Source: Microcaldota archaeon (GTDB taxonomy: Archaea; Micrarchaeota; Micrarchaeia; Norongarragalinales; Norongarragalinaceae). Taken from it: DNA of 33,628 nucleotides. Under the pieces are notes generated by a model that had not been told where the DNA came from, did no database searches, and worked only from the letters and a program-made list of their open reading frames with translations. The first letter of the stretch is position 1. Each line of letters opens with the position of its first letter. The stretch is taken from assembly GCA_016212375.1 (NCBI GenBank), contig JACRGH010000069.1, positions 1-33,628 of the forward strand, given 5' to 3'. A program made the position numbers and the translations under genes. Positions 4,831 through 26,335 of the stretch are shown here, piece by piece.

Positions 4831-5232
4831 ATGAAAGAAGCTTTACCGTTGATGTGGCGTAACATCCCCGAGCGCTACAATTTGCTCGGCTCACGTTGCG
4901 ACACTTGCGGCAAGAACTATTTCCCGCAACGCAAAGTCTGTCCAAATTGCCGACGCAAGGGCAAACTGGTCGAGGCGAAAATGCCGGAAACCGGAAAAAT
5001 CGTATCGTATTCCGAAGTGTTCGTCGCGCCAACCTGGTTTGACCACGAAACGCCCTATTTCCTCGCTATTGTGGAACTGGATAACCACGCCACGCTTCTA
5101 ACCCAGGTTGTCGATTCCAAACGCGAGAAAATCAAGGAAGGCGCCCGCGTGGAACTTCTGTTCCGCAGGATTTACGAGGATTCCCCCGAAGGCGCCATCG
5201 CGTACGGGTATAAGTTCAAGGTCGTTTCGTAG
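4831..5232 (+). CDS. DUF35 family OB-fold/Zn-ribbon protein, likely partner of thiolase/HMG-CoA synthase
   Basis: CDTCGKNYFPQRKVCPNCRRKGKLVE Zn ribbon followed by an OB-fold-like region (MPETGKIVSYSEVFVAP…); position after thiolase. Confidence 0.9.
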   Translation: MKEALPLMWRNIPERYNLLGSRCDTCGKNYFPQRKVCPNCRRKGKLVEAKMPETGKIVSYSEVFVAPTWFDHETPYFLAIVELDNHATLLTQVVDSKREKIKEGARVELLFRRIYEDSPEGAIAYGYKFKVVS

Positions 5233-5287
5233 GAGGGGGCGAGGACGACTAAGGTCCAGGGTGAAACGCTTTCCCCCGGGGCTTAGG
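5232..5287 (+). repeat. GC-rich gene-terminus-associated repeat, copy B
   Basis: GGAGGGGGCGAGGACGACTAAGGTCCAGGGTGAAACGCTTTCCCCCGGGGCTTAGG aligns with copy C in the same orientation. Confidence 0.65.
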
Positions 5288-5290
5288 AAC

Positions 5291-5330
5291 GGGGCCATTG
5301 CGTACGGGTATTACGTTCAAGGTGGTTTGA
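5291..5330 (+). pseudogene. Duplicated, diverged 3' end of the DUF35 gene
   Basis: GGGGCCATTGCGTACGGGTATTACGTTCAAGGTGGTTTGA vs GGCGCCATCGCGTACGGGTATAAGTTCAAGGTCGTTTCGTAG (5191-5232); high identity with a 1-nt indel. Confidence 0.7.
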
Positions 5331-10491: not shown

Positions 10492-10791
10492 GGGGACGTA
10501 AGGGCGGTTTTTGTTCTATAACCTTGCGGCGGTCGGGGGTGGCAAAGATACAAAAAAATTAAAAACGGCGCCGGCTACAAGTTGTCCATCGCTTTTTCCG
10601 GCTCTTCAGGTTCATTCGGGCCTTTTTACCGGTTGACGTTTCCGAGGTTTTTTCCCATGAGAAGCACTATTACATCTCAATCCAACGCTCCGTCGCCTTC
10701 AGTGGCTAGCCCGGTTGCATCCTCTATTCCGGCTTCCGTCCCGTCTACTTTGCCTGCTACTCCAAAAACCCATGCCCCGGCCATGCCTTCC

Positions 10792-11742
10792 ATGACCTTT
10801 GATTACGATATCCTCATCATCGGAGCGGGTGCCGCCGGCCTGACCGCCGCCGTTTATACCACGCGCAAAAAGCTCAAAACCGGCATCATCAGCATCGACG
10901 TGGGCGGTCAGACGAATTTGACGTCCAACATCGAGAATTATCCGGGTGTGGATGCCATGCACGGCGCCATGCTGATGCAGGAGTTCCTCAAAAAAGCGGT
11001 GTCCTTCGGTGCCACCTTGGTCAGCGGAAAGGTAGGAAAAGTGGAAAAATTGGAACCGGCCGGATTCAAAATCCACCTCAAAGATGGTCAGGTCCTTTCA
11101 TGTAAAGCGCTCATTTTGGCATTCGGCAAAGTCCCGCGCACCCTTGGGATTCCGGGCGAGGACCACTACTTCGGCAAAGGCATTTCCACCTGCGTGACGT
11201 GTGATGGGCCCCTGTTCAACCAAAAAGATGTCGTCATCGTGGGCGGCGGCAATTCGGCTATCGAAGGTGCTTTGGAGCTGTCGCACATCGCCAAGAAAGT
11301 CTATTTGATCCACCGGCGGGACAAGTTCACCGCCGATGCCGTAACGGTGGACAAGCTCAAGGCCAAAGCCAATTTGGAAATCATTTACAACTCGGTGTGT
11401 ACGGAAGTCAAGGGCGACAAATTTGTTCGAAGTGTGACGGTCGAGGACGTCAACAGCAAAGCCAAACGTGACCTTGCCATTTCCGGCATGTTTTTGGAAA
11501 TCGGTTTCATCATGGACATTTCCATGTTGGACGGCCTCGGCCTGCAAACCAACGAAAAGAAAGAAGTGGTCACCGATTTACGCTGCAACACCAACGTTCC
11601 GGGCATCTTTGCGGCCGGCGATTGCACCATCATCCCGTATAAGCAGACCGTCATTTCCGCGGGAGAAGGGGCGAAAGCCGCGCTGGAGGCGCATCGTTAC
11701 CTTACCGGGGCTAAGGGAATTACCCTTGACTGGGATCATTAA
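10792..11742 (+). CDS. trxB: Thioredoxin-disulfide reductase
   Basis: DYDILIIGAGAAGLTAAVYTTRK, CVTCDGPLFNQKDVVIVGGGNSAIEGALEL, GIFAAGDCTIIPYKQTVISAGEGAKAALEAHRYL. The ORF extends upstream to an ATG at 10657. Confidence 0.93.
   Translation: MTFDYDILIIGAGAAGLTAAVYTTRKKLKTGIISIDVGGQTNLTSNIENYPGVDAMHGAMLMQEFLKKAVSFGATLVSGKVGKVEKLEPAGFKIHLKDGQVLSCKALILAFGKVPRTLGIPGEDHYFGKGISTCVTCDGPLFNQKDVVIVGGGNSAIEGALELSHIAKKVYLIHRRDKFTADAVTVDKLKAKANLEIIYNSVCTEVKGDKFVRSVTVEDVNSKAKRDLAISGMFLEIGFIMDISMLDGLGLQTNEKKEVVTDLRCNTNVPGIFAAGDCTIIPYKQTVISAGEGAKAALEAHRYLTGAKGITLDWDH
11644..11711 (+). repeat. 68-bp perfect direct repeat, copy 1 (inside the trxB 3' end)
   Basis: Identical to 11809-11876, offset 165 bp. Confidence 0.95.
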
Positions 11743-11746
11743 TCCC

Positions 11747-11803
11747 GGAAGGGGGTGAGGCCCAGGCCGGGCCAGGGGGAAACCGTGTTTCACCCGGGGC
11801 GAC
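11747..11803 (+). repeat. GC-rich gene-terminus-associated repeat, copy C
   Basis: GGAAGGGGGTGAGGCCCAGGCCGGGCCAGGGGGAAACCGTGTTTCACCCGGGGCGACC aligns with copies A (rc) and B. Confidence 0.65.
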
Positions 11804-11808
11804 CAAGT

Positions 11809-11907
11809 CAGACCGTCATTTCCGCGGGAGAAGGGGCGAAAGCCGCGCTGGAGGCGCATCGTTACCTTACCGGGGCGAAAGGTATTTCGTTGGATTGGGA
11901 TCACTGA
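11809..11907 (+). pseudogene. Duplicated 3' end of trxB with a recoded last 10 codons (…GAKGISLDWDH*)
   Basis: 68 bp identical to 11644-11711, then GCGAAAGGTATTTCGTTGGATTGGGATCACTGA vs GCTAAGGGAATTACCCTTGACTGGGATCATTAA in the intact gene; peptide conserved except T/S. Confidence 0.85.
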
Positions 11908-25557: not shown

Positions 25558-26229
25558 ATGGCAAAAGAAAACGTAAAACCCACCCGCATGGAATTGCTCA
25601 ATACGAAAGGCAAAGTCAAGCTTGCGGAGAAGGGCCACAAGCTGCTCAAGCAAAAGCGTGACGCGTTGGTGTTGGAGTTTTTCAGCGTCATCAAAAAGGC
25701 GAAAGATTTGCGCAACCAGGTGGACACGCAGTTGATCGCCTCGTATCGTGCGCTTGCAATTGCCGAAGCCATGCACTCCCGATTGTTCTTGGAAACCGCG
25801 ACCTTGGCGGCGCACGCGGCGCCCGAAGTCGAAGTCAGCACGGCCAACATCATGGGCGTCCGGATTCCAAAAATCAAAGGCTTGGCCATTCAACGCAACC
25901 TCCTCCAAAGAGGCTACAGCGTGCAGGGTTCCTCAGCGGCGTTTGATGAAGCGGTCGAGGCCTTCGAGAAATCCCTGAACTGGATTATCCAGTTGGCGGA
26001 AACCGAAACGGCTCTCAAGAAGCTCCTTCAAGAGATTGAAAAAACGAACCGCCGGGTCAATGCGTTGGAATATAACATCCAGCCGGAACTCAAGCGGACG
26101 ATTAAGGAAATCCAAGGCCACCTCAATCGGTTGGAAGCGGAATTATTCTTTTCACTAAAAGTGACGAAGAAGCGCTTGGCGAAAAAAGCGGAATTGGAAG
26201 AAGACCTCAAGGCGAAGAAAAAGAACTGA
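25558..26229 (+). CDS. atpD: A-type ATP synthase subunit D
   Basis: PTRMELLNTKGKVKLAEKGHKLLKQKRDALVLEF…TNRRVNALEYNIQPELKRTIKEIQGHLNRLE. Confidence 0.96.
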   Translation: MAKENVKPTRMELLNTKGKVKLAEKGHKLLKQKRDALVLEFFSVIKKAKDLRNQVDTQLIASYRALAIAEAMHSRLFLETATLAAHAAPEVEVSTANIMGVRIPKIKGLAIQRNLLQRGYSVQGSSAAFDEAVEAFEKSLNWIIQLAETETALKKLLQEIEKTNRRVNALEYNIQPELKRTIKEIQGHLNRLEAELFFSLKVTKKRLAKKAELEEDLKAKKKN

Positions 26230-26245
26230 TTTCCGCTTTGGGCCA

Positions 26246-26335
26246 TACCCCGGCCTTTAGGCCGGCAATATGTCCCAAATGCTGTTTGATTTGCCCCTGC
26301 GGGGATACCCCGGGCTTTAGCCCGGGGAGGATGTC
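26246..26335 (+). repeat. Two tandem ~60-bp hairpin units resembling IS200/IS605-TnpB right ends (solo, no transposase)
   Basis: ATACCCCGGCCTTTAGGCCGGCAATATGTC (26246-26274) and ATACCCCGGGCTTTAGCCCGGGGAGGATGTCA (26306-26335), in register at 60 bp. Confidence 0.6.

Follow-up and report, generated by a model that had tools for sequence, protein, structure and literature searches.

A folded non-coding element lying between duplicated gene ends in Micrarchaeota

The trxB-like thioredoxin reductase gene described here ends twice. Its stop codon at 11742 is followed 4 nt on by a GC-rich element and then by the trxB 3′ end once more, in a truncated copy whose terminus encodes nearly the same peptide in other codons. 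How did one gene come to have two ends, and which of them is its own? The window, meaning the whole stretch of DNA analysed (33,628 nucleotides), is contig C56 of a Micrarchaeota MAG. Its relevant features are listed in Table 1; a TTG start at 10582 is also possible for the trxB-like ORF. The 68 bp at 11644–11711 that the first-pass annotation had marked as duplicated recur at 11809–11876 with 0 mismatches, and the GC-rich copy lies, as it had described, between the first stop codon and the second block, the intervening 66 nt being made up of TCCC, the 58-nt element and AAGT. Homology between the copies begins 3 nt before the 68-bp block, with AAG-CAGACC in the gene and AAG-T-CAGACC in the relic. 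The peptides AKGITLDWDH and AKGISLDWDH, each followed by a stop codon, were correctly reported; the number of differing codons was not, being eight of 11 with the stop included (seven synonymous and one non-synonymous changes) instead of nine. A single extra nucleotide after base 3 is present in many relics, for example at 11805–11809 of the window (AAG-T-CAG; GTT-N-CAAATC).

Table 1. Positions of the trxB duplication, the element and the second element copy in the window
Feature	Position	Strand	Evidence or remark
Second host gene, ending in EGAIAYGYKFKVVS and a stop codon	4831–5232	+	Upstream copy of duplicated end at 5188–5232
Second element copy in the window	5231–5286	+	49.5 bits; pseudoknot pair CTAAG/CTTAG
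Relic, truncated end copy of gene 4831–5232	5287–5330	+	
trxB-like thioredoxin reductase gene, carrying the terminus inferred to be imported	10786–11742	+	TIGR01292 9e-97; Pyr_redox_2
Upstream copy of duplicated block	11641–11711	+	AAG + 68 nt, identical to relic
Recoded trxB terminus, inferred to be imported	11712–11742	+	8 of 11 codons unlike relic; mismatch switches from 0% to 31%
Mobile element copy	11747–11804	+	58 nt, GC-rich; covariance models R1/R2, 74.2 bits
Third strand GGGGG of inferred triplex on hairpin 2	11751–11755	+	G.G-C / A.A-T / T.A-T covariation, antiparallel register only
Hairpin 1	11759–11773	+	11759–11762 with 11770–11773
Hairpin 1 loop	11765–11769	+	Pairs with last 5 nt of element
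Hairpin 2	11775–11795	+	11775–11779 with 11791–11795
Element 3′ end CGACC	11800–11804	+	Pseudoknot partner of hairpin 1 loop; host junction next
Relic, truncated native trxB 3′ end	11805–11907	+	Terminus closest to that of sister genome G001
Parts of trxB relic	AAGT; 11809–11876; 11877–11907	+	AAGT; identical block; native terminus with stop TGA

The origin of the two termini was assessed by comparison with a sister genome. The trxB gene of G001 has a single end with the spelling of the downstream copy and carries no element. Its last 33 nt show four differences from the downstream copy and nine from the upstream copy. Because G001 resembles the downstream copy, the upstream terminus, which is the one in use, is taken as the incoming one and the downstream terminus as the native relic. 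Polarity of this kind is clear for trxB and several further genes, not for all. Across 17 protein 3′ ends the left and right copies differ by 87 synonymous and 10 non-synonymous codons (unconstrained expectation, ∼21% synonymous), and the termini therefore diverged under selection in separate lineages rather than by drift after tandem duplication. This excess, which points to orthologous termini from separate lineages, upholds the view of the first-pass annotation that a simple tandem duplication is inadequate. Its proposal that a small element supplied a diverged, functional terminus, the old one persisting as a relic, is right, as judged from the single native-like end in G001 and the genome-wide association with gene ends described below, and is far more general than one locus. 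Its further suggestion, that recoding protects the restored site from re-targeting, was rejected because the block adjoining the junction is not recoded; ∼14 copies are perfect over at least the first 11 nt.

The trxB element belongs to a dispersed family, some 60 copies strong, of short and tightly folded non-coding elements situated at gene ends in this lineage of tiny archaea. A first covariance model, built from 15 copies, located the element at 63 places in six of 11 genomes of the same archaeal family, with uneven copy numbers (25 in G001, 18 in G005, 11 in G002 and six in G000), and a second model detected it in just those six among 301 Micrarchaeota genomes. Copies range in length from 53 to 146 nt and none contains an ORF. 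No Rfam match at gathering level was obtained in the window, and a single pattern match among IMG/VR viral sequences was attributed to chance, the rest of the element being missing. Degenerate element-like copies in G001 are not fully included in the catalogue; at L242 and L065, the G001 orthologues of element-bearing genes, a degenerate element-like sequence (GGGGGTCGAGGCG...) lies right behind the stop codon, beneath the reach of the model. Variants with long additional hairpins in the loop of hairpin 1 or 2 occur at L103, L104, L097, L098, L105, L106 and L109, and some of these are identical at unrelated loci. Another family of dispersed hairpins (about GGGGGTTCCGGAGGACC..GGGGG-loop-CCCCCGCGGTTC) was noted at L065, L073, L079, L085, L089 and L097; it sits to the left of the element near tRNAs, and at several tRNA loci its own end adjoins a tRNA fragment broken in the T-loop. 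The window also holds, at 26227–26325, two copies of another GC-rich hairpin repeat (ATACCCCGGxCTTTAGxCCGG), 60 bp apart.

The copies share an arrangement in which a truncated gene-end copy stands right at the 3′ end of the element and a complete version of the same gene end, in a different spelling, on its 5′ side. This gene-end architecture was scored in 51 of 64 element copies; the same score was reached by 1.0% of 1,500 gene ends chosen at random and by 1.3% of random positions in sister genome G001. Since 51 of the 64 copies have the arrangement, against ∼1% of random sites, its occurrence at trxB is not a matter of chance. Eight further copies were located later by element sequence alone. 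Seven show the architecture, and in the eighth, with a lower score, it is recognizable by eye; the copy at 5231 is counted in both sets. The repeat, which the first-pass annotation had proposed to follow to other gene ends, is thus tied to gene ends genome-wide and in sister species. Targets are the 3′ ends and 5′ ends of protein genes and tRNA genes, with the element on the strand opposite to the gene at protein 5′ ends, and they include thioredoxin reductase, a translation elongation factor, an ATPase subunit and tRNAs. At two loci, L074 (G005:C81) and L075 (G001:C11), tandem insertions of two consecutive elements are accompanied by successive copies of one gene end. The G001 orthologue of the window gene duplicated at 5188–5330 carries a different element, one codon away.

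Analysis of the fold used an alignment of 47 distinct copies. Compensatory changes preserve both hairpins as well as a pseudoknot, in which the loop of hairpin 1 pairs with the final five nucleotides of the element and which occurs in variants such as GTAAG/CTTAC, GCAAG/CTTGC, CGGAT/ATCCG and CTAAG/CTTAG. Paired cells amount to 92.9%, compared with 53–58% after a slide by one column, and double changes were found in 12 of the 14 pairs (0 of 500 shuffles). In the majority CGACC form, one base of the pseudoknot is mismatched. Covariation further links the purine strand of hairpin 2 to a strand of 5 nt located 5′ of hairpin 1, in the antiparallel sense (G.G-C, A.A-T, T.A-T), with a mutual information of 1.57 in this register (null maximum 0.39; other registers at most 0.22). 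As far as can be judged from comparative data alone, this covariation is the code of an antiparallel purine-motif triplex, a structure best known for DNA. Most T.A-T triples come from one subfamily, so there are fewer independent triplex changes than copies, but four of the five layers show matching changes. Agreement is also seen by eye in copies not included in the alignment (A.A-T in L202; A at the matching layer in L107). Minimum-energy folding of a single copy was not significant (z of −0.2 as RNA and −0.8 as DNA), and the fold is evident through covariation alone. Selection on the element sequence for two hairpins, the pseudoknot and a third strand on hairpin 2 is demonstrated. The triplex code and the strand specificity of the fold suggest recognition as folded single-stranded DNA; folded RNA is not excluded.

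The two sides of the element differ in how they join the host. Mismatch between left and right copies is ∼25% at positions 1–6 from the element end, falls to ∼7% at positions 7–11 and then rises to ∼18%. We read this profile as the trace of a putatively precise 3′ junction and a variable 5′ exchange point, and the 5′ side looks like homologous recombination. The trxB copies are identical through position 72 and show 31% mismatch thereafter (p < 0.002); so abrupt a change from identical to diverged sequence reaches significance in four of 13 testable copies (trxB and three others), not in the other nine, and the identical tract varies among copies from 0 to 68 nt. The target motif is weak (RNK-GARAA, confined to the first 8 nt) with nothing upstream; no single conserved attB/attP core was found, the targets sharing this 8-nt motif only. 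Inspection revealed no integron R/L boxes or constant GTT core, although a strand-specific fold exists. Where the target is coding, flank position 3 coincides with the codon wobble position in 12 of the 13 genes that run along the element and in 10 of the 14 that run against it, a few of the latter being possibly misassigned ORFs. The pattern suggests a role for identity of the carried flank with the target, save at position 3, and we can offer no firm mechanism for it. A guide-like step in identity at 20 nt, seen over all duplications, weakened when long duplications alone were considered and for this reason was dropped as evidence.

Mobility is indicated by several comparisons. Identical or near-identical elements occupy different genes in two within-genome pairs, elements in different genes of G002 and G005, which belong to different genera, have two differences in 53 nt, and three copies at unrelated loci in G001 share a common extension of hairpin 2 of ∼70 nt. 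Empty sites were found in sister genomes. Six target genes were struck in more than one species, often with a different element and with junctions a few nucleotides apart, a pattern suggestive of recurrent homing to these gene ends. As for the machinery, no Y1 transposase (PF01797) was found in any element-bearing genome, and Y1 transposition was rejected on that ground. LAGLIDADG genes are uninformative, being present in each of the 11 genomes. Serine recombinase is present in one element-rich genome only; the family search gave no match to the element distribution and this enzyme was discarded as mobilizer. Tyrosine integrase (PF00589) is present in every one of the four element-rich genomes; of the remaining seven it occurs in G003 alone, which has integrases and no detectable elements (p ∼0.015 for a draw of four from 11, ignoring the kinship of the MAGs). 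Because the 11 genomes are related, the association is no more than a lead. The main integrase, which carries a cysteine motif at its C-terminus, is similar to archaeal XerA at a score beneath the family cut-off. No integrase gene lies within the element copies, and adjacency links no enzyme to the element. A tyrosine integrase acting in trans is the best available enzyme candidate, unproved in the absence of adjacency or an assay.

There is good support for the element family, for the import of gene ends and for the fold. To account for them we favour a mechanism, with a probability of roughly 0.6, in which a recombinase acting in trans moves the ORF-less folded element together with a donor gene terminus, makes a precise junction on one side only and leaves the host end as a relic. 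The moving unit would consist of the donor terminus and the folded element; for trxB, the donor lineage would have had a single end reading GCTAAGGGAATTACCCTTGACTGGGATCATTAA. The recombinase would recognize the fold, and the 3′ junction would be made at most ∼6 nt from the element end at the weak RNK-GARAA target. On the 5′ side the donor terminus would pair with the host gene and be exchanged by homologous recombination at a variable point, so that the gene could work on with the imported terminus and its own would stay behind as a relic. In this scheme the nature of the molecule (DNA or RNA), the identity of the enzyme and the sequence of steps are inferred. That this constitutes a new class of mobile element, in which a folded-single-strand attachment site (pseudoknot and purine-motif triple helix) is combined with a one-sided site-specific junction and homologous repair and gene ends are traded between archaeal species, is put forward tentatively, at a little under even odds.

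Instead of a folded strand, a tyrosine recombinase might integrate small double-stranded circles (100–250 bp) in trans, the element being the attP arm and the gene ends attL and attR. The restored gene end would then follow the same logic as for prophages and islands at gene ends, and the T-loop targets in tRNAs, the co-occurrence of integrase and the weak 8-nt target motif are compatible with it. However, the target has no conserved arm and its core is different at each site, the identical tract is of variable length (0–68 nt), no copy contains an integrase and no full-size relative was found, and a strand-specific pseudoknot and triplex are unexpected of a double-stranded arm; we consider such circles unlikely. 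The compact pseudoknotted fold directly 5′ of target-matching sequence, and the target wobble on flank position 3 in both orientations, could also be those of a guide-RNA-like scaffold in the style of TnpB omega-RNA, with a nuclease cutting uninserted alleles and repair copying in the element and a rescue terminus. The matching block is kept in the upstream copy, though, which would be cut too, no PAM-like conservation is seen upstream, long duplications show no sharp identity step at 20 nt and 5′-end copies are antisense to their gene. No TnpB-type nuclease (PF07282) was found in element-rich G001 and G002 (25 and 11 copies), and a guide appears distinctly improbable, more so than the circles.

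Plain tandem duplication followed by drift, or a chimera of metagenome assembly, can be raised against any MAG data without raw-read mapping such as these. We nonetheless hold it to be very improbable: the same architecture is present in four species with separately assembled genomes, the element lies between the copies every time, the synonymous excess is 87:10 and the sister trxB is single-ended. Target-primed reverse transcription of a read-through transcript, as by a retro-element, would explain one fixed and one variable end, but is strongly disfavoured by the lack of reverse transcriptase (PF00078) in all 11 family genomes and is given hardly any credence. A homing-endonuclease mORF was rejected, the elements being 53–146 nt long without an endonuclease ORF.

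If movement of the folded element by a trans-acting recombinase is true, a gene-less mobile element survives through repair of its own damage; by this repair, conserved genes would become landing sites and their ends would be exchanged between species. The covariation of the third strand would be comparative-sequence evidence, in a natural element, for a purine-motif triple helix, which is usually argued from chemistry alone, and the dispersed copies offer a natural mutant library for site recognition.

A literature search, with most subscription journals outside its reach, returned analogues and no description of this element, and we could not match its kind to anything described. In phage 21 and e14, which integrate into icd, and in tRNA-targeting islands, the recoded gene 3′ end likewise comes from the element, and tRNA or protein gene ends are the targets. 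Those are kilobase elements with an integrase and one fixed core, whereas the archaeal element is 55–140 nt long and has a different target at each site. IS200/IS605 ends, REP/RAYT and MITE-like elements are also short dispersed hairpins, whose cut end pairs with bases of the loop or foot; the archaeal element differs from IS200/IS605 in having no Y1 transposase, and we know of no gene-end duplication with an imported terminus in this group. Nor, to our knowledge, has gene-end replacement been found for the GC clusters of yeast and sponge mitochondria, a different type of genome. These clusters and repetitive hairpin elements are, in the portions of the sources available to us, similar as short mobile GC-rich hairpins (PMC2800124, PMC4478555). 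Integron attC sites, including those of archaeal integrons, are folded single-stranded DNA used by a tyrosine recombinase, which is shown there and proposed here; the archaeal element differs in its topology (pseudoknot, triplex) and lacks R/L boxes, a constant GTT core and cassette ORFs or an array (PMC9668308). In fungal mitochondria (Allomyces, Glomus and Rhizopus), mORFs are associated with duplicated C-termini of atp6, atp9 and cox2 (PMC3630166). The mORFs encode a homing endonuclease and occupy few sites, in contrast to the archaeal element with no ORF, ∼60 sites, 5′ ends and tRNAs among its targets and a conserved fold (PMC3630166). In both, a foreign, synonymously diverged C-terminus on the gene is followed by the element and then by the native relic, and it is the native copy that matches close relatives (PMC3630166).
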